DNA of 34,890 nt from Akkermansia muciniphila (lineage in GTDB: Bacteria; Verrucomicrobiota; Verrucomicrobiia; Limisphaerales; BJHT01), in the NCBI GenBank assembly GCA_945861535.1, contig CAMAUZ010000081.1:1-34890 (forward strand), read 5' to 3'. The notes under the pieces are model-generated. The model made no database searches. It was not told the origin of the DNA and saw nothing but the letters and a program-made list of their open reading frames with translations. Positions 9,181 to 32,033 of the stretch are shown here, in pieces. Both the position numbers and the translations under genes were made by a program. Position 1 is the first letter of the stretch. Each line of letters opens with the position of its first letter.

Positions 9181-10815
9181 ATGAAACAATCACTCCAGCT
9201 CTTTGCGCTCCTTTGCTTTCTTTGCGGCGAATCCCTCCCCGCCGCGATTCCGGGTGCGGGCGGCTGGCGGCATGAGGAGTTGCGGCGGTTCAAGGCCGCC
9301 GAGGCGAATCAGGGTGTCGCGGTGGATGCGGAGTTTTTCTACGTCATCGACAACCACGCGCTCGGCAAATACCGCAAGGACACCGGCGCGCGTGTCGGCG
9401 GCTGGGACGGCGGCAAGGCCGGGCGTCTCCAGCATCTCAACGCCGGCGTGGTGATCGCGGACCGCCTCTATTGCGCGCACTCGAATTTTCCCAAGCTGCC
9501 GGCGGAAAGCTCGGTCGAGATCTGGGACACGGCCACGATGCAATCCGTCGGCCAGCATCGCTTCGAGCAGCCGCCCGGCTCGCTCACGTGGGCGGTGCCG
9601 CGCGGTGGGGAATGGTTCGCGTGCTTCGCGCATTACCGGCCGTTGAGTGATCCGGCGCGGGCGCAGGTGGTGAAGTTTGATGCGCAATGGCAGCGGCTCG
9701 CGAGCTGGTCGTTCCCCGCCGACCTGATCCAGCGTTTCGCCGGCAGCAGCGCGTCCGGCGGCGGATTTGGGCCGGGCGGCGCGCTCTTCGTCACCGGCCA
9801 CGACGCGCGCGAACTCTACGTGCTCGGCTTTGGTAGCTCGACATTCCAATGTCGAGTCCCCGGCGCAGGGGCGGAAGACTCGACATTGGAATGTCGAGCT
9901 ACTGCGATGCCGGAGGACTCGACATTGGAATGTCGAGCTACGAGGGCGGTGCTGGAATGGCAGGCCACCATTCCCATCAGCGCCGAGGGTCAGGCGTTCG
10001 CGTGGGACCCGGTGGAAACCAACCTGCTCTACTCGATCTCGCGTCCCCGGCGCGAAGTCATCGTCTCGCGCATCACCCGCGGCGCGGCGACGATACCCTC
10101 TGCCGCCGTTGCCCCCGCTGCGCCGTCCGGATTGAGCGCCGAGGAGAAGCGCCTCGGCTTCGAGTCCCTCGCCGACGGCCAGGGCTTCACCGGCTGGGAG
10201 CACAAGGGAAACTGGGTCGTCGCGGATGGCGCGTTCCATCGCAAAGACAAGGGCGGTGATCTCACCTACACCGCGCGAAAAATCCCCGACGACTTCGAAC
10301 TGCGCTTCGAGTGGAAGGTCGCGAAGGGCTGCAACAGCGGCGTCTATTACCGGCCCGGCCAATACGAGTATCAGGTGCTCGACAACGTCAACAGCCCCTA
10401 CGGCGAGAATCCGCGTCAGGCCGCCGCGTCGCTCTTCTTCTGCATGGCCCCGGCGCGCGACGCCACCCGCCCGATCGCCGAATGGAACGAAGGCCGCATC
10501 GTGGCGCAGGGCACCGTCATCCAGCACTGGCTCAACGGCGAGGCGGTGATCGACTTCGATTACACCGACCCGCGCTGGGCGAAAGAGATTGAGCTGCTGC
10601 GCATCCGCGGCGCGAACCTCGCGGCGCGCGGCGCGCTCCTCCGCCTGCAAGACCACGGCGCAGACGTGTGGTTCCGCCACCTTCGTCTGCGCACCATTCC
10701 CGCGGATGAAAAGCTCGCGCGCTTTCTCTTCACGCCGATGCCGATCCCCGCAGAGGCGATGAGAAAGGAACAGGCGCGGATCGAGCAGATGCTCAAAGCG
10801 AAAAAGAAACCGTGA
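9181..10815 (+). CDS. Secreted propeller-DUF1080 protein (3-keto-disaccharide hydrolase domain)
   Basis: The 544-residue protein begins with a signal peptide (about 1-21, LFALLCFLCGESLPAA). Residues 30-290 have repeated strands suggestive of a beta-propeller (YVIDNHALGKYRK, SVEIWDTATMQSVGQHRF). Residues about 325-515 are a DUF1080 domain, recognised by FEWKVAKGCNSGVYYRP and the later WNEGRIVAQGTVIQHWLNGE. DUF1080 is a concanavalin-like beta-sandwich, now often named 3-keto-disaccharide hydrolase because some members act on 3-keto-glucosides. Oddities: residues 218-254 are encoded by three copies of a palindromic repeat, giving STFQCR and twice DSTLECRAT, and the signal peptide overlaps a sequence also present between genes at 14561-14593. 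Frame is kept, so the gene is probably functional. The protein is predicted to be periplasmic or extracellular. Confidence 0.87.
   Translation: MKQSLQLFALLCFLCGESLPAAIPGAGGWRHEELRRFKAAEANQGVAVDAEFFYVIDNHALGKYRKDTGARVGGWDGGKAGRLQHLNAGVVIADRLYCAHSNFPKLPAESSVEIWDTATMQSVGQHRFEQPPGSLTWAVPRGGEWFACFAHYRPLSDPARAQVVKFDAQWQRLASWSFPADLIQRFAGSSASGGGFGPGGALFVTGHDARELYVLGFGSSTFQCRVPGAGAEDSTLECRATAMPEDSTLECRATRAVLEWQATIPISAEGQAFAWDPVETNLLYSISRPRREVIVSRITRGAATIPSAAVAPAAPSGLSAEEKRLGFESLADGQGFTGWEHKGNWVVADGAFHRKDKGGDLTYTARKIPDDFELRFEWKVAKGCNSGVYYRPGQYEYQVLDNVNSPYGENPRQAAASLFFCMAPARDATRPIAEWNEGRIVAQGTVIQHWLNGEAVIDFDYTDPRWAKEIELLRIRGANLAARGALLRLQDHGADVWFRHLRLRTIPADEKLARFLFTPMPIPAEAMRKEQARIEQMLKAKKKP
9833..9941. 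repeat. Three in-frame copies of a 26-bp palindromic repeat
   Basis: Copies lie at 9833-9858, 9877-9902 and 9916-9941. The last two are identical and direct; the first is their exact reverse complement. The core is ctcgacatt-gg-aatgtcgag, a 9-bp perfect palindrome with a 2-nt centre, flanked by ga on one side and ctac on the other. The direct copies are 39 nt (13 codons) apart, so both are read in the same frame. The insert lies between strands of the propeller part of the DUF1080 protein. Confidence 0.92.
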
Positions 10816-19120: not shown

Positions 19121-19220
19121 ACGGAGCGCGGCATTTATGCCGCTTCAGCGTGGTACGTCCGGGCGTGTGCGAACGGGCTGTACGATTCGAACAGTGAAGC
19201 GGCGTGAACGCCGCGCGCCG
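19121..19220. repeat. Family-1 core, partial copy
   Basis: The inner arms ggagcgcggcatttatgccg (from 19123) and gcggcgtgaacgccgcgcg (ending near 19218) match the centres of 2202-2443 and 21882-22118. The 22-bp outer terminal repeats are missing. It lies between nnr and the membrane-protein gene on the minus strand, where it could attenuate read-through. Confidence 0.65.
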
Positions 19221-19250
19221 GGAACAAGGTGAGGCTAGGCGTTTCATTTC

Positions 19251-20669
19251 TCAAGTCGCGTTGCCGAGCGTCGCGAGCAGTTCGTCCAGCGTCCAGCAGT
19301 TCGCACGCGCGGACAATTGATCGGCCGCCGCGCCGTGCTGCCAGACGGCGTAGCGCATGGCCCGGAGCGCGGCGGGCGGCGGCTGAAACTGCGGCTGCGC
19401 CAGCCACCCACCGAGATAACCCGCGAGCACGTCGCCGCTGCCGCCCTGCGCGAGGTGGGGATTGCCGGAACTGTTGGTGAAAATCTCGCCGGTGCTGCGG
19501 CCGATGACCGTGTGGCTGCCCTTGAGCGCGACGTGGCAGTTGCTGAAACGCGCCGACAAACTGCGGACGCTCGCGGGCCGGTCCGCCTGCACCGCGCTGG
19601 TCGGCACCTGCAACAATCGTGCGGCCTCGCCGGGATGCGGCGTGATGGCGCGAAACGCTTCCGTCGTCGTCGGCCCGGCGGGCAGCCACTCCAGCGCACT
19701 GGCGTCCGCGATCACCGGCCGGTCGAGCTGCCGCCAGACTTCCGCAATCAACTCCTTCAAATCCGCCGACAGCTTTTCATCCGCCAATCCGGGGCCGACC
19801 ACCACCGCGCTGAAATCATGCAACTCGGCGAACGTCGGGCGACCGGGCCGGACCATCACGTTGTGCAACTGCGCGGCCACCGGCGCGTACACATTCTCGG
19901 CGGTGAAGAGCGTGATCAAGCCCGGCATCGCGCGCGACGCCCCGCGCGCCGCGAGCACCGCGGCCCCGTGAAACCCCAGACTTCCTGCGAGAATCGCGAG
20001 ATGGCCAAACGTCCCCTTGTGCCCGCCGACCGGTCGTCGCGGCGGAAAGCCCGCGAAATCCTCCGCCTGCGTCCACTGCATTTCGCTGCGGATCAGGCAC
20101 GGGATGAGGCCGATGTCCGTGACCACTTCGAGCCGGCCGACAAACGGCGCGGCGCTGATTTTCAACAAACCCGCCTTGGGCGCGCCGAGCGTCACCGTCA
20201 GCTCCGCCTGCACGGCCGCGCCCTGCGGTTGCCCGGTGTCGGCGTTCAGGCCGGACGGGACATCAATCGCGAGCACGGGAATGCCTGACTGGTTGATCTG
20301 CGCGAGGAGTTCGATCCAGTCCGCGGCGAGCGGGCGGTTGAGGCCGATGCCGAACAAGCCGTCGATAATCAACGCCGGTTTGCGCGCGACCTGCTGGGAG
20401 AAAATCGCGAGCGCCGCGCCGGGGTCCGTCACCGTGATGACTTCGGCTTTGCGGCCCGTGAGATCGGCCACGGCGGCGCGGGCGTCGTCGCCGTTATGAC
20501 CTTTCCCAGCGAGAACGAGGATGCGGTCGAGCGGCCGCGTGCGCCGCAGCGCCGCGCGGGCAATGGCGTGCCCGGCTTCGGCGATGACCGACGGGGCGGA
20601 GATGCCCGCAGCCCAAGTGGCCTCCTCCCATTCCCGCATCTGCGCAACCGTGATGATGGGGAGCGGCAT
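19251..20669 (-). CDS. nnr: Bifunctional NAD(P)HX epimerase / ADP-dependent NAD(P)HX dehydratase
   Basis: The 472-residue fusion repairs hydrated NADH and NADPH in the cytoplasm. The N-terminal epimerase half (YjeF-N, about 1-205) has GKGHNGDD at 55-62, the substrate loop normally GxGNNGGDG, and IDVPSGLNADTG at 135-146. The C-terminal kinase-fold dehydratase half (about 210-472) has GGHKGTFGHLAILAGS, VVVGPGL, TPHPGEAARLL at 343-353 and NPHLAQGGSGDVLAG, with catalytic Asp413. The dehydratase removes the hydrate using ADP while the epimerase interconverts R and S forms. Within the epimerase loop His replaces the second Asn and one Gly is lost, a deviation worth noting. It follows msrP by 46 nt on the same strand and is likely co-transcribed. 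Confidence 0.96.
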   Translation of the reverse strand: MPLPIITVAQMREWEEATWAAGISAPSVIAEAGHAIARAALRRTRPLDRILVLAGKGHNGDDARAAVADLTGRKAEVITVTDPGAALAIFSQQVARKPALIIDGLFGIGLNRPLAADWIELLAQINQSGIPVLAIDVPSGLNADTGQPQGAAVQAELTVTLGAPKAGLLKISAAPFVGRLEVVTDIGLIPCLIRSEMQWTQAEDFAGFPPRRPVGGHKGTFGHLAILAGSLGFHGAAVLAARGASRAMPGLITLFTAENVYAPVAAQLHNVMVRPGRPTFAELHDFSAVVVGPGLADEKLSADLKELIAEVWRQLDRPVIADASALEWLPAGPTTTEAFRAITPHPGEAARLLQVPTSAVQADRPASVRSLSARFSNCHVALKGSHTVIGRSTGEIFTNSSGNPHLAQGGSGDVLAGYLGGWLAQPQFQPPPAALRAMRYAVWQHGAAADQLSARANCWTLDELLATLGNAT

Positions 20670-20715
20670 GGGCGCGCGTGGGAGGAGGTGGGACAGGGAG
20701 TGGCCCAGGCCCCGA

Positions 20716-21675
20716 TCAGGCCTTGTAGAGACCGGCGACCTGCTTGGCGTACCCGTTGTAAGGCTGGGTGCGCACGCGGTCCCCGGTGTCGATCAACCGC
20801 TCGCTGGCCTGCGACCAGCGCGGGTGCGGGATGGCGGGATTCACGTTGGACTCGAAAGGATATTCCTCCGGCGACAGCGTCTCCCACAACGTGGCGGGCT
20901 GGGTCGCGGTCAGCTCGATCTTCACGATCGACTTGATGCTCTTGTAGCCGTACTTCCACGGCACGACGAGGCGCAGCGGCGCGCCATGCTGCTTCGGCAA
21001 CGGTTTGCCGTAGATGCCCGAGGCCACCAGCGTGAGCGGATTCATCGCCTCGTCGAGCCGCACCCCCTCGGTGTACGGCCACGGATAACCGCGCAACCGC
21101 TGGATGCCCGGCATCTGCTCGGGCTTGTTGGCGGTGACGAACTTCACGAACTTCGCCTCCGCCTTGGGCACCACCTTTTCGAGCAACTTGCTGAGTTGAA
21201 AACCCGTCCACGGCACGATCATCGCCCACGCCTCGACACAGCGGAAGCGATAGACCCGCTCCTCGACGCCCATCAGTTCGAGCAACTCGCGCGCGTCGAG
21301 CTTGAGCGGTTTCTCGACCAGCCCGCCGATCTCGATGGCCCACGGATCGATCTCAAACTTCGCGGTCAATTGATGCACCTTGTCCTTCTGCGTCGTGAAC
21401 TCGTAAAAATTATTGTACGTCGCGGCCGTCTTCTCGTCGGTCAACGTCCAGCCCGGATCGTAGGAAATGTTGCGCGTCGGCGGATAGAGCTTGCTGGCGG
21501 CCTTGGGCGCATTGGCGGCGGCATCGGCGGCGTTGCCACAGCCCTGCGTCGCCAGCAAGCCGGCACCGCCGAACCCGAGCTGCAGCAGAAAATGGCGGCG
21601 GTTGAAAAAAGCGGTTTCGGACGTGACCTGACGTTCCGGCAAGTGCCAGTCGGGGCGGAGAATCAAATTGGACAT
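20716..21675 (-). CDS. msrP: Protein-methionine-sulfoxide reductase catalytic subunit MsrP (YedY)
   Basis: The 319-residue periplasmic molybdopterin enzyme has a Tat leader FNRRHFLLQLGFGGAGLL (Arg26-Arg27). The sulfite-oxidase-fold core includes YNNFYEF at 87-93 and the molybdenum ligand Cys146 in RFRCVEAW, followed by VPWTGFQLSKLL, GYPWPYTEG and LVVPWKYGYKSIKSIVKI, all family landmarks. MsrP reduces methionine sulfoxide in envelope proteins. Its usual membrane haem partner MsrQ is not adjacent, so electrons must come from elsewhere or from a distant msrQ. The start at 21675 places the Tat motif near the N-terminus; the longer frame to 21792 runs into a palindromic repeat and is rejected. nnr follows after 46 nt. 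Confidence 0.95.
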   Translation of the reverse strand: MSNLILRPDWHLPERQVTSETAFFNRRHFLLQLGFGGAGLLATQGCGNAADAAANAPKAASKLYPPTRNISYDPGWTLTDEKTAATYNNFYEFTTQKDKVHQLTAKFEIDPWAIEIGGLVEKPLKLDARELLELMGVEERVYRFRCVEAWAMIVPWTGFQLSKLLEKVVPKAEAKFVKFVTANKPEQMPGIQRLRGYPWPYTEGVRLDEAMNPLTLVASGIYGKPLPKQHGAPLRLVVPWKYGYKSIKSIVKIELTATQPATLWETLSPEEYPFESNVNPAIPHPRWSQASERLIDTGDRVRTQPYNGYAKQVAGLYKA

Positions 21676-21730
21676 GGCGGGAAGATGCCGCACAACCTGA
21701 CTGAAGCGACAAAAAAAAGCGGGAAAGGTC

Positions 21731-21875
21731 GACGGGGGCACATCTTGACACTGCCCCCAAGGAACGCTGGTGCTGGGTTTGGAGTTCCGCATTTATGCGG
21801 TCCGGTTGCTTGAACCCGCCGAACCGCCTAAAGGCGGAACTCCAAACGGGGGCAGTGTCAAGATGCGCCCGTCGG
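21731..21875. repeat. Family-3 element with long terminal inverted repeats
   Basis: The outer arms contain a perfect 18-bp inverted pair, catcttgacactgccccc at 21741-21758 and its complement at 21848-21865. The similarity extends a further 10 nt outward on each side with small gaps. Inner arms tttggagttccgc (from 21778) and gcggaactccaaa (ending 21846) are those of 2532-2664. Total length is about 145 bp. Confidence 0.8.
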
Positions 21876-21881
21876 CGGGCG

Positions 21882-22118
21882 GTACATCCCGAAGTTGGTG
21901 GTGTAAGGCAAGGCGGGCGGGGCGTCGCGGGCGCACCGGGAGCGCGGCATTGATGCCGCTTCAACGGGGAGCGTTCCGGGCGGGTCCGACCGCGCTGCGA
22001 CGTTCGGACGGTGAAGCGGCGTGAACGCCGCGCCCCAGCCGCGCCTGCGGCGCGGCACTGGCAGAGCAACTATTCCACCGCCCGCCGCTCGTAATTTTTC
22101 CAACAACATCGGGACGCA
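21882..22118. repeat. Family-1 element, second copy
   Basis: The outer terminal repeats are diverged but recognisable: tacatcccgaagttggtgg near 21883 and ccaacaacatcgggacgc at 22100-22117. Inner arms lie at about 21938-21964 and 22011-22035 (gagcgcggcattgatgccgc and gcggcgtgaacgccgcgcc). It begins 6 nt after the family-3 element ends. Confidence 0.7.
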
Positions 22119-22265: not shown

Positions 22266-25200
22266 ATGAAAACTCTGCGTCACTCCCTCCGCGCCCTCGC
22301 GCTGTGCCTTTTCGCCGGTCTCGGTCTGGCCGCCGGGCCGGGCACCGCCGCCGTCGCCCCCGTGGCGCACAACCGCCCGCCGGTTGCCGCCCCGGCACCG
22401 GGCGAAACCCAGACCCTTACCAGCCCCGACCAGGTGCCCGAGGGCCTCGCCAAGTCCGATTGGTCGAGCATCCGCGCCGCTTACGAGGCCGGGCGGCACG
22501 CCTTCCAGCCCACCGCCACCGGCTGGCAGGCGCGCAATCCGGGGCAGCAGTGGACCACGCAGTTCGACCGCCGCGGCTTCCTCGCCCAGCCGCGCGGGGC
22601 GGACTGGCAGTGGGGGCTGGAGCTGCAGGCCTACGGCTTCCCCGGGGCCGAGCGCACCGTCGGTGACGGGCCAGGGGTCAAGGCCGAGGGCCAACGCCTG
22701 AGCTACCAGTGGGATGCGAATGTGCAGGAGTGGTTCGTCAATGACCGGCGCGGCCTGGAGCATGGCTTCACGGTGACGCAGCGCCCGGAGGTTCGTCCGG
22801 TTTTGGACGGTGCCCGTCCGCTGCCGCTCTCGGAGGGAGACGTGCGGTTGCCGGCCTCGGCGCGCGCCGCGAAAAAACGCCAGCGGACTGGCGCGCTCCA
22901 AGCCGCTGGCGCGCCAACCGCCGCTGACCCTCTCGCCTTCACGCTCGCGGTGCGCGGTGGTCTCGCGCCGCACCTCACCGCCGACGCGCTCGGTGTCGAG
23001 TTCCGCGATGCCACCGGGGTCACGGTCCTCAACTATTCCGGCCTCAAAGTCTGGGATGCAGACGGGAAGATTCTCCCGTCGCGCTTTGCGATGGCCGCCT
23101 CGCACCCCGCCACTCCCAACGCTCCTCCCACCCTGCGCCTGCTCGTCGAGGAGCGCGGCGCCCGCTACCCGCTCACCATTGATCCCATCGCCCAGCAGGC
23201 GTACTTGAAGGCCAGCCAGGTCACGGCGGTGGATCAGTTCGGCCTGTCGGTGGCCATCGCGGGCGACACGGTGGTGGTCGGGGCCTACCTGGAGGACGGC
23301 AGCACGCCGGGGGTGAACGGCCTGGTGGACGAGGGGGCGGTCAATGCCGGCGCGGCCTACGTCTTCGTGCGCAGCGGGACGAATTGGAGTCAGCAGGCGT
23401 ATTTGAAAGCTGGCCAGGTCACGGCCGATGATCGGTTCGGCACCTCGGTGGCCATCGCGGGCGACACGCTGGTGGTCGGGGCCTTCTTGGAGGACGGCAG
23501 CTCGCCGGGCGTGAACGGCCCGGTGGACGAACTCGCGCCCGATTCCGGCGCGGCCTACGTCTTCGTGCGCAGCGGGACGAATTGGATCCAGCAGGCGTAT
23601 TTGAAGGCCAGCAACGTCACGGCCTATGACCAGTTCGGCTTTTCGGTGGGCATCGCGGGCGACACGGTGGTGGTCGGGGCCAACTATGAGGACAGCAGCG
23701 CGCCGGGGGTGAACGCTGCGCCGGACGAACTCGCCAGCAATGCCGGCGCGGCCTACGTCTTCGTGCGCAGCGGGACGAATTGGATCCAGCAGGCGTATTT
23801 GAAGGCCAGCCAGGTCACGACTCAAGACTGGTTCGGCTCCTCGGTGGCCATCGCAGGCGACACGCTGGTGGTCGGGGCAGAGCAGGAGGACGGCAGCGCG
23901 CCGGGGGTGAACGGCCCGGCGGACGAACTCGCCACCAATGCCGGCGCCGCCTACGTCTTCGTGCGCAGCGGGACGAATTGGAGCCAGCAGGCGTATTTGA
24001 AGGCCGGCCAGGTCACGGCCGGTGACCGTTTCGGCGTCGCGGTGGCCGTCGCGGGCGACACGGTGGTGGTCGGGGCACGCCATGAGGACGGCAGCGCGCC
24101 GGGGGTGAACGGCCCGGTGGACGAGGGCGCGCCCGAGTCCGGTGCGGCCTACGTCTTCGTGCGCAGCGGGACGAATTGGAGCCAGCAGGCGTATTTGAAG
24201 GCCAGCCAGGTCTCGGCGGGGGATCAGTTCGGCATCTCGGTGGCCATCACGGGCGACACGGTGGTAGTCGGGGCCAACGGCGAGGACAGCACCGCCACCG
24301 GGGTGAACGGCCCGGTGGACGAGGGCGTGATCGAGGCCGGCGCGGCCTTCGTGTTTGTGCGCAACGGGACGACGTGGACGCAACAGGCGTATTTGAAAGC
24401 CAGTCAGGTCTCGGTATCGGACTTTTTCGGCCGGTCGGTGGCCATCTCGGGCACCACGGTGGTGGTCGGGGCCAACTCGGAGGACGGCCGCGCGACGGGG
24501 GTGAACGGCGTGGTAAACGAACTCGCCATTGATTCCGGCGCGGCCTACGTGTTCACCGGCCTGGGTTCAGCGGTGGCCGCCCCCACCGTCACCGCCATCG
24601 CGCCCGCCAGCGGCAGCACGGCCGGCGGCACCAGCGTGACGATCACCGGCACCGGCCTGACCGGAGCTACGGGCGTGACCCTCGGGGGCGCCGCCGCCAC
24701 GGACGTCACGGTGGTGAATGCCACCACGCTCACCGCCACCACCCCGGCGGGCGCGGCCGGCCCGGCCAGCGTCGTCGTCACCACTCCCGGCGGGGCGAAT
24801 GCGGCGAACACCCTCTACACGTATGTGCTGCCCGCTCCCAACACCGCCCCGAGTTTTGTCCTGCCGCCGGGCACCAACCTGCCGGCGGGGACGACGTGGA
24901 CGGCGCAGCCGAACGCGGGCAGCCGGAATTGGTATTCCATCGCGTCGTCGGCCGACGGGACGAAGCTGGCGGCGGTGGCCTACAACGGCCAGATCTACAC
25001 CTCGATAGACTCCGGGGTGAACTGGACGGCGCAGCCGAACGCGGGCAGCCGGAGCTGGTCTGCCATCGTGTCGTCGGCCGATGGGACGAAGCTGGCGGCG
25101 GTGGTGTACGACGGGCAGATTTTCACCTCGACCGACTCCGGGGTGAACTGGACGGGGCGGGCCGTCAGCCGGTTTTTGTCTGCCATCGCGTCGTCGGCCG

Positions 25201-28200
25201 ATGGGACCAATCTGGTCGCGGTGGTCAACATCGGGCAGATTTACACCTCGACCGACGCCGGAGCGATCTGGACGGCGCGGGACAGCAACCGGTCCTGGAC
25301 TTCCGTCGCGTCGTCGGCCGATGGGACGAAGCTGGCGGCGGTGGTGGCCGGGGGCCAGATTTACACCTCGACGGACTCGGGGGTGATCTGGACGGCGCGG
25401 GACAGCGATCGGAATTGGTCTGCCATCGCGTCGTCGGCCGATGGAACCAAGCTGGTGGCGGGGGAAAACGGCGGCCAGATTTACACCTCGACGGACTCCG
25501 GGTCGAACTGGACGGCGCAGGTGGCGGGCGGCGTGTTTTGGTATTCCCTCGCGTCGTCCGCCGATGGGACGAAGCTGGCGGCGGGGAATGACGGCGGCCA
25601 GATTTACACCTCGCCGGACTCTGGGATAAGCTGGACGGCGCGGGACAGCGACCGGAGTTGGTCCTCCATCGCGTCATCGGCCGACGGGACGAAGCTGGCG
25701 GCGGTGGCCTTCGGCGGCCAGATTTACACCTCGGTCGGGACGCTGGCACCGTTCGCCATCACGGTGGCGGCGAACCGCGGGCTGGTCACGTCCAACAGCT
25801 TCGCCATGAGCATCGTGGCCGGCCCGGCGGCGGAGGCGGCGCAGACGGTGAGCTTCACGGTCACCAACAACAACAACGCGCTCTTCCGCGGGCAGCCGGC
25901 CCTGGATGCCAGCGGCAACCTTACCTTCACCCCGGCGGGGGCAGTGGGCACCGCGACCGTCACGATCATCGCGCGGGATAACGGCGGCACCGCCAACGGC
26001 GGCGTGGACACCAGCGCGCCGCAGTTCTTCACCATCACGCTGATCGATTCGCCCAACACCGCGCCGACAGTGGCGAACGCCCTCGGGAGCCTCACGGTAA
26101 ACGAGGACGCCGCGAACGGGGTGACCAATCTCGCGGCGGTTTTCACGGACGCCGAGACGCCCGCCGCCAGCCTGATTTACGCCGTGGTGGGGAACACGAA
26201 CAGCGGGCTGGTTGCCGCCAGCATCACCAGCGGCACGAACCTGACGCTGGCCGTCACGGCGGACAGCAGCGGCGCCAGCCAGATCAGCGTGAGCGCGACC
26301 GATCCCGGCGGCTTGGCGGTGACGAACACCGTTGCGGTGACGGTGAACCCGGTCAACGACGCCCCGAGCTTCGTGTTGCCGGCGGGCACGAGCACGCCGG
26401 CCGGGGTGACTTGGACGGAGCAGCCGAACGCGGGCAGCCGGAATTGGAATTCCATCGCGTCGTCAGCCGATGGGACGAAGTTGGCGGCGGTGGATGGCGG
26501 TGGCCTGATTTACACCTCGACGAACTCCGGGGTGACCTGGGCGGCGCAGTTGAACGCGGGCAGCCGGGTTTGGACTGCCATCGCGTCGTCGGCCGACGGG
26601 GCGAAGCTGGCGGCGGTACATCAAGGCGACTACATCTACACCTCGACGAACTCCGGGATGACTTGGACGGAGCAGCCGGACGCGGGCAGCGGGAATTGGA
26701 TTTCCATCGCGTCGTCGGCCGATGGGACGAAGCTGGCGGCGGTGGTTGCCGGCGGCCAGATTCACACCTCGCCGGACTCCGGGGTGAACTGGACGGCGAG
26801 GGACAGCAGCCGGAATTGGTTTGCCATCGCGTCGTCGGCCACGGGGACGAAGCTGGCGGCGGTGGTGGACGGCGGCCAGATTTACACCTCGATAAACTCC
26901 GGCGTGAACTGGACGGCGCGGGACAGCAACCGGTATTGGCTGGCCATCGCGTCGTCGGCCAATGGGATCAAGCTGGCGGCGGTCGATTACGGCGACGGGG
27001 GCACCGGCGGCCAGATCTACACCTCGACGGACTCCGGGGAGAACTGGGTGGCCCGGGAGGACAACCGGAGTTGGCGGTCCATCGCGTCGTCGGCCGATGG
27101 ACGGCGTCTGGCGGCGGTGGTGGACGGCGGCCAGATTTACACCTCGGCGAACTCGGGCGTGAACTGGACGGCGCAGGCCTCGGGCAGCCGGAATTGGAAG
27201 TCCATCGCGTCCTCGGACGATGGGACTAAGCTGGCTGCGGTGGCCTCCGGCGGGCTGATTTACACCTCGGTCGGGGCGGTGGCACCGTTCGCCATCACCG
27301 TGGCGGCGAACAGCGGGCTGGTCACGTCCAACGGCGTCGCCACGAGCATCGCGGCCGGGCCGGCGGACGAGGCGGCGCAGACGGTGAGCTTCACGGTCAC
27401 GAACGACAACCCCGTGCTCTTCAGCGGGCAGCCGGCCATGGATGCCAGCGGCAACCTCACCTTCACGCCGGCGGCGATCGCCGGAACCGCGACCGTCACG
27501 GTCATCGCCCGTGACAACGGCGGCACCGCCAACGGCGGCGTGGACACCAGCGCGCCGCAGTTCTTCACCATCACGGTGACCGGTCCGCCCAACACCGCGC
27601 CGACGGTGGCGAACAGCCTCGGGAGCCTCACGGTGAACGAGGACGCCGCGAACGTGGTGACCAATCTTACAGTGGTCTTCACGGACGCCGAGACGCCCGC
27701 CGCCAGCCTGCTTTACGCCGTGGTGGGGAACACGAACAGCGGGCTGGTCACCGCCACCATCACCAGCGGCACGAACCTGACGCTGGCCTTCACGGCAAAC
27801 CGCAGCGGTGCCAGCCAGATCAGCGTGAGCGCGACCGATCCCGGCGGCTTGGCGGTGACGAACACCTTTGGCGTGACGGTGAACCCGGTCAACGACGCCC
27901 CAAGCTTCGTCTTGCCGGCGGGCGCGACCACGCCGGCCGGAGCGCCGGGGACGGCCCCGGCAGCGGGCGGCCGGGACCGGCGTCTCATCGCGTTGTCGGT
28001 CGCTGCGCCGCAGTCGGCGGCGGGGGTTGCCGGCGGCCAGCTTTACCCTTCGAAGGGGCCGGCGGCGCTCTACGCCATCACGGTGGGGGCGAGCAGCGGG
28101 TTGGTCACATCCAACCGCTTCGCCACGAGCATCGTGGCCGGCCCGGCGGATGAGGCGGGGCAGACGGTGAGCTTCACGGTCACGAACAACTTCAACGCGC

Positions 28201-28613
28201 TCTTCAGCTTCAGCGGGCAGCCGGCCTTGGATGCCAGCGGCAACCTCACCTTCACCCCGGCGGGGACCGCCGGCACCGCGACCGTCACGGTCATTGCCCG
28301 GGATAATGGGGGCACGGCCAACGGCGGCGTGGACACCAGCGCGCCGCAGACCTTCACGATTACCCTCACGCCAGCGGCGGTGGTGCCCCCGGAGCTGGCC
28401 ATCCAGCGCGGCAGCGGTACCGTGACGATCCGCTGGCCCGTGTCACCGGGAACATTCCTTCTCCAAAGCACGGCCACGCCGAACGTCCCCGCCTCCTGGA
28501 CCCCCGTCACGGATTTGCCGACGATCACGCTGGGCACGAACCACCTGACCGTGCCCTCGCTCCCGACCCCGCCGGCCGCAGTGCGCCGCTTCTACCGGCT
28601 CAAGACACCGTAA
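22266..28613 (+). CDS. Giant modular surface protein (FG-GAP, IPT/TIG, BNR-like, Ig/cadherin-like)
   Basis: The 2115-residue exported protein has a signal peptide (about 1-25) and an N-terminal region of unknown fold up to about 310. Seven FG-GAP-type repeats of exactly 66 residues follow (about 312-773; pattern QAYLKAS, DxFGxSVAIAGDTVVVGA, AGAAYVFVRSGTNW), then an IPT/TIG domain (about 775-855). Two near-copies of a large module come next: seven BNR/sialidase-like Trp-rich units of about 40 residues (SSADGTKLAAV then GQIYTSTDSGVNWTA), an Ig-like domain (AGPADEAAQTVSFTVTN), and a cadherin-like domain (NEDAANGVTNLA). A third module copy has only one degraded BNR unit (about 1895-1930). The protein ends RRFYRLKTP, a tail common on such Verrucomicrobia proteins. 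The likely role is adhesion or binding at the surface; no catalytic motif is visible. Confidence 0.93.
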   Translation: MKTLRHSLRALALCLFAGLGLAAGPGTAAVAPVAHNRPPVAAPAPGETQTLTSPDQVPEGLAKSDWSSIRAAYEAGRHAFQPTATGWQARNPGQQWTTQFDRRGFLAQPRGADWQWGLELQAYGFPGAERTVGDGPGVKAEGQRLSYQWDANVQEWFVNDRRGLEHGFTVTQRPEVRPVLDGARPLPLSEGDVRLPASARAAKKRQRTGALQAAGAPTAADPLAFTLAVRGGLAPHLTADALGVEFRDATGVTVLNYSGLKVWDADGKILPSRFAMAASHPATPNAPPTLRLLVEERGARYPLTIDPIAQQAYLKASQVTAVDQFGLSVAIAGDTVVVGAYLEDGSTPGVNGLVDEGAVNAGAAYVFVRSGTNWSQQAYLKAGQVTADDRFGTSVAIAGDTLVVGAFLEDGSSPGVNGPVDELAPDSGAAYVFVRSGTNWIQQAYLKASNVTAYDQFGFSVGIAGDTVVVGANYEDSSAPGVNAAPDELASNAGAAYVFVRSGTNWIQQAYLKASQVTTQDWFGSSVAIAGDTLVVGAEQEDGSAPGVNGPADELATNAGAAYVFVRSGTNWSQQAYLKAGQVTAGDRFGVAVAVAGDTVVVGARHEDGSAPGVNGPVDEGAPESGAAYVFVRSGTNWSQQAYLKASQVSAGDQFGISVAITGDTVVVGANGEDSTATGVNGPVDEGVIEAGAAFVFVRNGTTWTQQAYLKASQVSVSDFFGRSVAISGTTVVVGANSEDGRATGVNGVVNELAIDSGAAYVFTGLGSAVAAPTVTAIAPASGSTAGGTSVTITGTGLTGATGVTLGGAAATDVTVVNATTLTATTPAGAAGPASVVVTTPGGANAANTLYTYVLPAPNTAPSFVLPPGTNLPAGTTWTAQPNAGSRNWYSIASSADGTKLAAVAYNGQIYTSIDSGVNWTAQPNAGSRSWSAIVSSADGTKLAAVVYDGQIFTSTDSGVNWTGRAVSRFLSAIASSADGTNLVAVVNIGQIYTSTDAGAIWTARDSNRSWTSVASSADGTKLAAVVAGGQIYTSTDSGVIWTARDSDRNWSAIASSADGTKLVAGENGGQIYTSTDSGSNWTAQVAGGVFWYSLASSADGTKLAAGNDGGQIYTSPDSGISWTARDSDRSWSSIASSADGTKLAAVAFGGQIYTSVGTLAPFAITVAANRGLVTSNSFAMSIVAGPAAEAAQTVSFTVTNNNNALFRGQPALDASGNLTFTPAGAVGTATVTIIARDNGGTANGGVDTSAPQFFTITLIDSPNTAPTVANALGSLTVNEDAANGVTNLAAVFTDAETPAASLIYAVVGNTNSGLVAASITSGTNLTLAVTADSSGASQISVSATDPGGLAVTNTVAVTVNPVNDAPSFVLPAGTSTPAGVTWTEQPNAGSRNWNSIASSADGTKLAAVDGGGLIYTSTNSGVTWAAQLNAGSRVWTAIASSADGAKLAAVHQGDYIYTSTNSGMTWTEQPDAGSGNWISIASSADGTKLAAVVAGGQIHTSPDSGVNWTARDSSRNWFAIASSATGTKLAAVVDGGQIYTSINSGVNWTARDSNRYWLAIASSANGIKLAAVDYGDGGTGGQIYTSTDSGENWVAREDNRSWRSIASSADGRRLAAVVDGGQIYTSANSGVNWTAQASGSRNWKSIASSDDGTKLAAVASGGLIYTSVGAVAPFAITVAANSGLVTSNGVATSIAAGPADEAAQTVSFTVTNDNPVLFSGQPAMDASGNLTFTPAAIAGTATVTVIARDNGGTANGGVDTSAPQFFTITVTGPPNTAPTVANSLGSLTVNEDAANVVTNLTVVFTDAETPAASLLYAVVGNTNSGLVTATITSGTNLTLAFTANRSGASQISVSATDPGGLAVTNTFGVTVNPVNDAPSFVLPAGATTPAGAPGTAPAAGGRDRRLIALSVAAPQSAAGVAGGQLYPSKGPAALYAITVGASSGLVTSNRFATSIVAGPADEAGQTVSFTVTNNFNALFSFSGQPALDASGNLTFTPAGTAGTATVTVIARDNGGTANGGVDTSAPQTFTITLTPAAVVPPELAIQRGSGTVTIRWPVSPGTFLLQSTATPNVPASWTPVTDLPTITLGTNHLTVPSLPTPPAAVRRFYRLKTP
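22878..22916. repeat. Palindromic segment inside the giant gene
   Basis: Two overlapping inverted pairs lie in the coding sequence: cgccagcgg (22878-22886) with ccgctggcg (22903-22911), and tggcgcgc (22889-22896) with gcgcgcca (22909-22916). They encode a Gln/Ala/Arg linker (RQRTGALQAAGAP) between domains, in frame. Confidence 0.6.
23199..24584 (+). repeat. Seven tandem 198-bp coding repeats (FG-GAP array)
   Basis: Repeat starts (gcgta at 23199, 23397, 23595, 23793, 23991, 24189 and 24387) are spaced exactly 198 nt apart with no insertions or deletions. Long blocks, such as the one encoding AAYVFVRSGTNW, are nearly identical at DNA level, indicating recent duplication or gene conversion. Confidence 0.95.
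24894..25740 (+). repeat. BNR-like coding array, block 1
   Basis: Seven Trp-rich units are spaced 120-126 nt (landmark gcgtcgtcggcc at 24942, 25068, 25188, 25308, 25428, 25551 and 25671). The first two units carry a two-residue longer loop (QPNAGSR instead of RDSNR). Confidence 0.9.
26408..27275 (+). repeat. BNR-like coding array, block 2
   Basis: About seven units of 120-132 nt with the same landmarks as block 1 (26457, 26583, 26709, 26829, 26949, 27081 and 27207). One unit has an extra GDGGTG insertion. The flanking Ig-like and cadherin-like modules are near copies of those around block 1. Confidence 0.88.
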
Positions 28614-30222: not shown

Positions 30223-30417
30223 GAAGCTCAAAGCTCAAAGCCTAAAGCTCAAAGAAAGTTCCAAGCTCCCAGCTCCAAGCGGCACGGATGGCTTTCGCCG
30301 TTGGCTATGTCGTAAGCTCTCGATCGAGACTTGGCGCCCAGCCCGCCGTCCGGCCGAATTTGAAACTTGGCACTTGGCCCTTCCCTTGAGCTTTGAACTT
30401 TGAGCTTTGAGCTTTTT
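30223..30417. repeat. agctcaaag-type heptamer repeats, inverted pair
   Basis: The left part (30223-30275) has repeated gctcaaag units (gcgaagctcaaagctcaaag, then ctaaagctcaaag). The right part (30361-30417) has the inverse (gagctttgaactttgagctt). A T7 run follows directly on the plus strand, so the whole could terminate transcription of the PQQ-propeller gene. It is the same type as 31841-32033. The 258-nt gap holds nothing else. Confidence 0.75.
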
Positions 30418-30428
30418 TTACGCTCCGC

Positions 30429-31127
30429 TCAATCCGGCGACAGCTCGCGCAACGCCGTCTCGAGCTGTACCCGCAGCTTCTCCCGCTCCTCGTCCGTGAT
30501 GTCGCGCGGCACGCAGATGGGCGTGCCGAACGTGACCTCCCACCGCGCGAACGGCAGCGGAATTTGAAACCGGTCCCAACTGCGCACCCGAATCTTCCAG
30601 TTCAAATACGTCCCCACCGGCACGATGGGCAAACCCGTCACCTGCGCCAGCGCCAGCACGCCGTCCTGCACGCGGTAGCACGGCCCGCGCGGACCGTCCG
30701 GCGTGATGGCGAGGTGATGCCCCTTTTCCGCCCAGGTCGTGAGTTCGAGCAGCGCCTGCGCGCCGCGGCGGCTCGACGACCCGCGCACCGCCTGCACGCC
30801 GAAATACTCGAGCACCCGCGCCACCAGCCCGCCGTCCTTGCTCGCGCTGACAATCGCCGCCAGCCCGCGGTCCGGCGCGCGACGGCGCACAAACCACTCG
30901 AACACCGGCATCGCCAGCGCGAGCCGGTTGTGCCACACGGCGAAAATAATCGGCGGCGCATCCGGCGATTCCAGCAGCCGCGCACGGTCCTCATGCCGCG
31001 TCCGCAACGTCCACGACACCCCGCGGATCGCCGCCACGATCACCGCCGCCGCCAGGTGCTGATGCCACTTCAACGGCTGCGGCCGGACGATGCCGGACGT
31101 GCGGGGCTTGGGAACCGTTGCTGCCAT
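30429..31127 (-). CDS. DUF374 lysophospholipid acyltransferase-like protein
   Basis: The start at 31127 gives 232 residues. An N-terminal hydrophobic stretch (LAAAVIVAAIRGVSW) suggests membrane association. Family landmarks are HNRLALAMP with His66, SASKDGGLVARVLEYFG, RGSSSRRGAQALLEL, and TPDGPRGP at 142-149 followed by QDGVLALAQVTGLPIVPVG. DUF374 proteins belong to the LpxL/PlsC-type acyltransferase superfamily and are thought to act in lipid A or other lipid acylation; the actual substrate here is unknown. AGGAG lies 5 nt before the ATG, and that ATG overlaps the ruvA stop by one base (TGATG), so translation is coupled. A longer frame to 31319 is inside ruvA and is rejected. Confidence 0.9.
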   Translation of the reverse strand: MAATVPKPRTSGIVRPQPLKWHQHLAAAVIVAAIRGVSWTLRTRHEDRARLLESPDAPPIIFAVWHNRLALAMPVFEWFVRRRAPDRGLAAIVSASKDGGLVARVLEYFGVQAVRGSSSRRGAQALLELTTWAEKGHHLAITPDGPRGPCYRVQDGVLALAQVTGLPIVPVGTYLNWKIRVRSWDRFQIPLPFARWEVTFGTPICVPRDITDEEREKLRVQLETALRELSPD

Positions 31128-31732
31128 CAAGCTCCTTTTTTCAACGCCGCGCGCACGAGGTCTTCGAGGGCCGCCGCCGGCCCCAGCACCGCCTGCGCCC
31201 CACGCACCGCCTCGCCGGCCTCGACCTGTTTGAAGCCCAGCGCCATCAGCGCGAGCACGGCGTCGTTCACCTTTTGATCCGCGGCCGAGAGCGTGTGCTC
31301 CGCGCTGCCGGCCTCCCACGCGCCCGCCGCGCCGATCTTGTCGCGCAGCTCGACCACGATGCGTTCGGCTGTTTTTTTTCCGATGCCGGAAATCTGCGAC
31401 AACGACCGCACATCGCCCGCCGCCACCGCGCCGCGAAACGCCGTCACGTTCATCCCGCTCAGCACGTTCAGCGCGATCTTCGGGCCGATGCCGCTGACAG
31501 TGTTGATGAGCAGCCGAAACATCTCGCGCTCGGCCGCCGTGACGAAGCCGTAGAGCACATGCGCATCCTCGCGCACCGCCAAATGCGTGAGCAGATGCAG
31601 AGCATTGCCGGGCGCGGGGAGTTTGTTGAACGACGACAGCGGAATCAGCACCGCGTAGCCCACGCCGTTGACGTCGATCGTCACCTGCGTGGGCAGGGCT
31701 TCCACCAGTTTGCCGTGAAGAAAAGTAATCAT
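31127..31732 (-). CDS. ruvA: Holliday junction branch migration protein RuvA
   Basis: The 201-residue protein is of normal RuvA length. Domain I (OB fold) begins MITFLHGKLVEALP with the usual VDVNGVGYAVLIP strand (here IDVNGVGY). Domain II contains two helix-hairpin-helix motifs, NTVSGIGPKIALNVLSG and QISGIGKKTAERIVVEL, that contact junction DNA. Domain III at the C-terminus (DAVLALMALGFKQVEAGEAV) is the RuvB-binding part. RuvA tetramers hold the four-way junction while RuvB drives migration. ruvB and ruvC are not adjacent; instead a DUF374 acyltransferase gene follows with a one-base overlap. The start at 31732 fits the family N-terminus exactly. Confidence 0.97.
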   Translation of the reverse strand: MITFLHGKLVEALPTQVTIDVNGVGYAVLIPLSSFNKLPAPGNALHLLTHLAVREDAHVLYGFVTAAEREMFRLLINTVSGIGPKIALNVLSGMNVTAFRGAVAAGDVRSLSQISGIGKKTAERIVVELRDKIGAAGAWEAGSAEHTLSAADQKVNDAVLALMALGFKQVEAGEAVRGAQAVLGPAAALEDLVRAALKKGA

Positions 31733-31840
31733 TGCGTGCGTTCCGCCGTTAAGGCGCGCGCAGCTAAACACAGTTGGCAATCGGGGCGCAACCCATGCGT
31801 CGCGCCCAATCGCCGCGCGGCCGATGCAACGCCGAAAAAT

Positions 31841-32033
31841 GCTCAAAGTTCAAAGTTCAAAGCTCAAGGGAAGCTCCAGCATTCAAGTCTCCAATGAGGA
31901 GAATTTCGCCGCCTGGCCGCAAAACAAAGTCATGGCGGCCAATTCCACCCAAAGAGCAAAACCCCACCCCGAGGCCGTGGAGCTTGGCTTTTGGCGCTTC
32001 CCTTGCGCTTTGAACTTTGAGCTTTGAGCTTCC
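31841..32033. repeat. agctcaaag-type heptamer repeats, inverted pair, second copy
   Basis: The left arm (31841-31879) reads gctcaaagttcaaagttc then aaagctcaagggaagctcc. The right arm (31991-32033) is the inverse (ttcccttgcgctttgaac, then tttgagctttgagcttcc). With 30223-30417 it brackets the ruvA-DUF374 pair. The 482-nt gap around it also holds the promoter and leader candidates below. Confidence 0.75.

Follow-up and report, generated by a model that had tools for sequence, protein, structure and literature searches.

The window, by which is meant the whole stretch of 34,890 nucleotides analysed, belongs to a draft genome of 7.94 Mb in 169 contigs (G000). It includes a gene for a 544-residue protein with a DUF1080 (3-keto-disaccharide hydrolase) domain, the frame of which contains three copies of a short palindromic repeat (Table 1). 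A first-pass annotation had described these as three 26-bp copies, one of them inverted, read twice as DSTLECRAT and once as STFQCR, and this proved to be exact. The second and third units are the identical 26-mer GACTCGACATTGGAATGTCGAGCTAC and the first is its exact reverse complement. Each unit is made up of GTAG, a 9-bp stem with a 2-nt loop (CC or GG) and two further bases, and has a hairpin core of 20 nt. Allowing up to three mismatches to this core, three cores were found in the window, as against 0.01 expected from shuffled sequence. The segment is a REPIN-like inverted pair (units 1 and 2) with one extra unit.

Table 1. Positions of the repeat units, of the genes that carry them in frame in G000 and of the candidate transposase gene.
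Feature	Position	Strand	Remarks
Host gene, 544-aa protein	9181-10815	+	Open frame uninterrupted through all three units
Inserted segment	9832-9945	+	114 nt, codons 218-255 (38 codons), against four codons in relatives
REP unit 1	9833-9858	+	26 nt; GTAG at its start; read as GSSTFQCRV (including STFQCR)
Spacer, units 1-2	9859-9876	.	18 nt
REP unit 2	9877-9902	-	Read as DSTLECRAT; inverted pair with unit 1, both GTAG tags outward (REPIN-like)
Spacer, units 2-3	9903-9915	.	
REP unit 3	9916-9941	-	Oriented as unit 2; read as DSTLECRAT
RAYT-like HUH transposase gene	G000:C118:18439-19179		247 aa; Y1_Tnp, E = 2.5e-08; HUH motif PNHVH
DUF1553 (PSD1) proteins	L056, L057, L069, L179		Cluster directly after YR or YRQ
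Fifth PSD1 protein	L061		Cluster between the two main domains
NB-ARC/TPR protein	L070		In-frame cluster
Type ISP restriction-methylase	L074		In-frame cluster
Histidine kinase	L177		Cluster inside the ATPase domain
Serine/threonine kinase	L178 (G000:C33), insert L178:3001-3197		66 residues, two tandem REP pairs, between DFGIAKL and TAGTPGYMAPEQ, that is, in the activation loop

The DUF1080 domain was intact at the C-terminal end of the protein (PF06439, residues 326-504, E = 3.4e-38 in Pfam). Upstream of it no Pfam match was obtained, but this region aligns with relatives. Judged by eye, the N-terminus resembles a signal peptide. Homologues were aligned from a genome of the same genus (G001, 84% identical over the alignment), from G058 (72% identical) and from G050 (a shorter protein, 51% identity over 277 columns), and all three lack the segment. 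At the site of insertion they have an uninterrupted LxxPxxGxVxxW with a four-residue turn, PETG, PAAG or PKSG, and the window gene has a net gain of 34 codons. The first-pass annotation had pointed to just such an alignment, and none of the orthologues shares the segment. As all three relatives can be aligned at this place without it, the 38-codon segment is most simply read as a gain in G000. The insertion does not have clean ends, and comparison of the window gene with the aligned relatives brought no recognisable target duplication to light. A resemblance between the first spacer (VPGAGA) and the old turn (VPETGA, FPAAGA) was set aside as too short and too G+C-rich. For the G000 and G001 genes dN/dS was 0.17 over 509 aligned codons, a value that may come mostly from the time before the insertion.

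The first-pass annotation had proposed a repeat able to spread into genes, and a search of the whole genome supported this. G000 contained 37 exact copies of the 20-nt core (none in a reversed control), which ruled out a local duplication unique to this locus. GTAG precedes 36 of the 37, the sole exception, on contig C147, having CTAG. A search for the 24-mer with up to three mismatches gave 63 matches, among which a palindrome on contig C46 appears twice, once per strand; the control gave 0. These units fall into 26 clusters with distinct flanks, 24 of which contain an inverted pair with its tags outward and two of which are single units; core-to-core spacing is 28 nt in several pairs and 22 nt in the first pair of the window. 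Thus G000 has both the dispersed short palindrome with an unpaired GTAG at one end that marks a GTAG REP and, commonly, the inverted pair with spacer that marks a REPIN, and the repeat is a dispersed GTAG REP/REPIN family. Its spread among genomes is narrow: the exact 24-mer was present in 3 of the 58 genomes in the set of relatives, the window's own included. Conservation of the element across the phylum was ruled out, the 24-mer occurring in 1 of 288 phylum genomes, again its own.

G000 yielded nine matches to Y1_Tnp (IS200-like), and one of these genes, on contig C118 (Table 1), is an HUH gene flanked by its own REPs, the arrangement known from RAYT genes or REPtrons. It sits amid eight units, four upstream and four downstream, and its stop codon TAG falls within the GTAG of a downstream unit. 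Near its C-terminus it contains RRYIANNP, which may mark the position of the catalytic tyrosine. A search for a relative with a solved structure gave no matches. In G058 a RAYT 89% identical to that of G000 has the window-type unit on both sides; in G068 (68% identical) CTCGACTTTCCAAAGTCGAG and similar units flank both sides; and in G255 (56% identical) there are three GTAGCTCGATTTTCCAAAATCGAG units, upstream only. Transposase and repeat change together across these three genomes. In G058 (L249, G058:C27:209751-210485) the RAYT frame continues through the downstream REP to end in GSSTFQCRVEEQPA, so that this transposase would bear its own repeat as a tail.

The pairing of unit and RAYT is nonetheless not strict. 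The search took in 14 genome handles, each with an exact unit (two of them, G027 and G063, share contig and place and are probably the same genome), and a RAYT of at least 68% identity was found in three: G000, G058 and G068. Of the 80 loci listed for an exact unit, 19 come from G059, but the best RAYT of that genome is 42% identical, and at its three examined RAYT loci there was no unit within five mismatches. G001 has one exact 24-mer, yet its best RAYT match is partial and 43% identical; G065 and G066, in which the exact unit is present, gave no RAYT match. Among 288 phylum genomes the best foreign RAYT reached 56% identity. A GTAG/GTGG hairpin pattern was present at three RAYT loci of the phylum sample (L268, L272 and L273) and not found at three others (L269, L270 and L271); for comparison, the same pattern gave 8 matches in 30 DUF1553 loci (108,683 bp).

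We consider it very probable that three GTAG REP units, of a family most likely spread by a RAYT by way of single-stranded hairpins, inserted in a turn of the DUF1080 protein and were retained there, the added peptide most likely being neutral. A RAYT-type HUH transposase would be the enzyme that moved the units, and the segment would have interrupted or replaced the four-residue turn in the N-terminal domain. Its retention could be understood from three features: the 24-nt unit, read directly, has a stop codon in one of six frames and is stop-free in the other five; the net gain is divisible by three; and a turn can accommodate extra residues. The turn is presumably exposed at the surface, the protein presumably still works and the effect is presumably neutral. 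An alternative in which the copies came from other REP units through local duplication, gene conversion or recombination is unlikely. Units 2 and 3 match exactly, share an orientation and lie 39 nt apart, which would allow unit 3 at least to be a local copy, and the failure to recognise a target duplication would also suit such an origin; however, 26 clusters with differing flanks and a RAYT gene lying amid units fit transposition better.

Insertion by transposition into a tolerant site would also fit the other in-gene copies. Reading frames to either side of each of the 26 clusters of G000 were scored, their translations were read and nine spanning proteins were scanned against Pfam. At least 10 of the 26 clusters, that of the window gene included, lie in frame within genes (Table 1). 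Five genes (L056, L057, L069, L177 and L179) out of these ten have the insert wholly inside a Pfam match, and in the serine/threonine kinase L178 the best kinase Pfam stretch stops within it. The G001 versions of L177 and L178 contain no REP, the stretch corresponding to the L178 insert being shorter; for L061, L070 and L074 there was no G001 counterpart among the matches listed. Open frames at five more clusters (L058, L059, L066, L068 and the second cluster of L071) were not taken to be genes, on weak or conflicting coding scores. Elsewhere, a scan of named genomes gave at least 101 stretches with the unit, and the 80 listed stretches that were classified held 89 clusters, 8 of them too close to the end of their stretch. 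The remaining 81 were scored: 8 as coding, 1 as possible, while 72 were not called coding. The nine coding or possible clusters occupy eight open frames, every one with Pfam domains, the hosts including a metal P-type ATPase, in which the cluster follows DKTGTLT at a short distance, a transketolase, an FGGY sugar kinase and a PSD1 protein, here again at YRQ.

These copies bear on whether the insert has acquired a function, either through its three cysteines, as disulphides in an exported protein, or through a hairpin that tunes the mRNA. The three Cys codons of the insert and the N-terminus like that of a signal peptide speak for the former, and REPs have been proposed to act as RNA elements (PMC3733652). 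The cysteines, however, follow from the reading frame used: the earlier remark that each copy adds a Cys is correct for the frame of the window but does not extend to other in-gene copies, which are read in Cys-free frames such as VARHSNVE and LDIGMSSY. Moreover, the insert is present in one of the four aligned proteins, and the decorated proteins are unrelated to one another. A selected function is improbable, and a neutral insertion remains the preferred reading.

Among the papers listed for palindromes in genes or in frame, the nearest is that of Di Nocera et al. (2013; PMC3733652); PMC2996958, on a palindromic amphipathic repeat coding sequence, and a review of MITEs (PMC10969869) were listed too. 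Di Nocera et al. report that several species have GTAG REPs within genes, with the greatest number in the verrucomicrobium Opitutus terrae, that over half of these insertions consist of dimers or groups which code for 20-30 residues, and that flanking genes often take their stop codon from GTAG ends. The G000 repeat agrees in its GTAG tag, in stem and loop sizes within the ranges given there, in its outward-tagged dimers, in its association with a RAYT, in a stop codon derived from GTAG and in having in-frame gene copies in a verrucomicrobium. It differs from the O. terrae REPs in that its host belongs to another verrucomicrobial lineage; its stem may or may not be that of one of the 24 published GTAG families. 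With the REPINs of Pseudomonas, defined by Bertels and Rainey (2011; PMC3116915) in extragenic space, it shares the inverted REP doublets able to form one hairpin and the link to a RAYT gene. It departs from them in that at least 10 of the 26 G000 clusters lie in genes and that a third unit follows the pair of the window. As the repeat carries GTAG and is associated with a RAYT gene, it was placed with the GTAG REPs and REPINs. The finding is ordinary in kind, since in-gene GTAG REPs, dimer inserts and GTAG-derived stops are already reported in PMC3733652; it is striking for the number of genes that carry units. The window gene offers a clear case of a REP cluster apparently gained inside a protein gene, with empty-site relatives and a candidate transposase in its own genome.

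A palindromic element of the Rickettsia type (RPE) is very improbable, and so is a relative of RPEs acquired by horizontal transfer. As in Rickettsia, palindromes lie in frame inside conserved proteins; according to PMC3733652, however, the in-gene RPE-4 and RPE-6 of R. conorii bear the tag CGTC, for which no link to a transposase is known, whereas the G000 unit is tagged GTAG and has a RAYT, a separation drawn on tag and transposase link. The likeness to Rickettsia noted at first pass therefore stands as to the way of working, given in-frame copies in at least 10 of 26 clusters, but with GTAG and the RAYT neither RPE as the nearest relative nor a new kind of repeat is supported. An assembly artefact, to which a draft of 169 contigs might be open, is just as improbable, as the units have distinct flanks, keep the frame in nine other genes and occur in frame in genes of other assemblies too.

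The newer part, and that most worth following, is the occurrence of coding palindromes of several kinds in the loops of DUF1553 proteins. Where L056, L057 and L069 of G000 have REP pairs after YR(Q), their counterparts in the sister species G001 have different inverted repeats. For 74 of the 97 PSD1 matches of G000, sequences were compared with a profile and inserts of at least 10 residues were sought, giving at least 15 inserts, which fall at four profile positions in 13 DUF1553 genes. The approach overlooks some inserts, as that already known in L056 went undetected. When the DNA was folded, z lay below -3 for 7 of the 15 inserts and for 1 of 90 length-matched control stretches (Fisher p = 2e-6; Mann-Whitney p = 3e-4). 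Three of these seven are known REP inserts (L057, L069 and L179), which leaves 4 of 12 without them. At the YRQ place five of eight inserts passed (L057, L069, L179, L282 and L322), and L300 and L314 passed at other loops. The palindromes comprised REP units, a GTAG...CTAC palindrome (L282) and GGTTGAAG-like hairpins (L314 and L322).

These results suggest, tentatively and with the balance somewhat against it, that palindromic DNA in G000 is a regular source of loop sequence, and that DUF1553 loops, chiefly after YRQ, repeatedly gain coding palindromes of unrelated origin and diversify in this way; the YRQ loop might either attract hairpins or be one of the sites in the genome that tolerate them best. 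We treat the pattern as a lead, because the question was posed with the pattern already in view and 8 of the 15 inserts fail the folding threshold. A literature search, whose scope left most subscription papers outside, found no report joining DUF1553 and palindromes. If the lead holds, these loops would offer a natural system for setting site choice by hairpins against filtering by selection only, and could be used to gauge how often mobile hairpins supply new protein sequence.

Two kinds of palindrome other than REP units lie in these loops. The in-frame palindrome of L282 (G000:C120:7200-9000) consists of GTAGCCGCCGACGTGAGGAGGCGGA and its inverse, with 25-bp arms and GTAG...CTAC; its arm recurs in L071 (1463-1532) and partly in L182 (6278-6339). 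Long degenerate hairpins of GGTTGAAG words lie in DUF1553 loops at L231, L243, L314 and L322, in G000 and G001, and translate as, for example, KVEGLKGS...STLQPFNPST. That they form a large dispersed family was not supported by the one pattern used, which matched three times in G000 and nine times in G001, with some overlap between matches.

The window also contains other repeats. Several long inverted repeats of short words such as AAGCTCAAAGCTCAAAG, in the style of the GGTTGAAG hairpins, lie at 30223-32032. A 29-nt sequence around GGAGCGCGGC...GCCGC (family D12) and a related 41-nt sequence (D10) are each present five times at 252-2722 and 19123-22045, and the two look like another dispersed palindromic family. 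Finally, a 198-nt repeat is present in seven copies at 23192-24679, within an open frame of 2115 amino acids (22266-28613).
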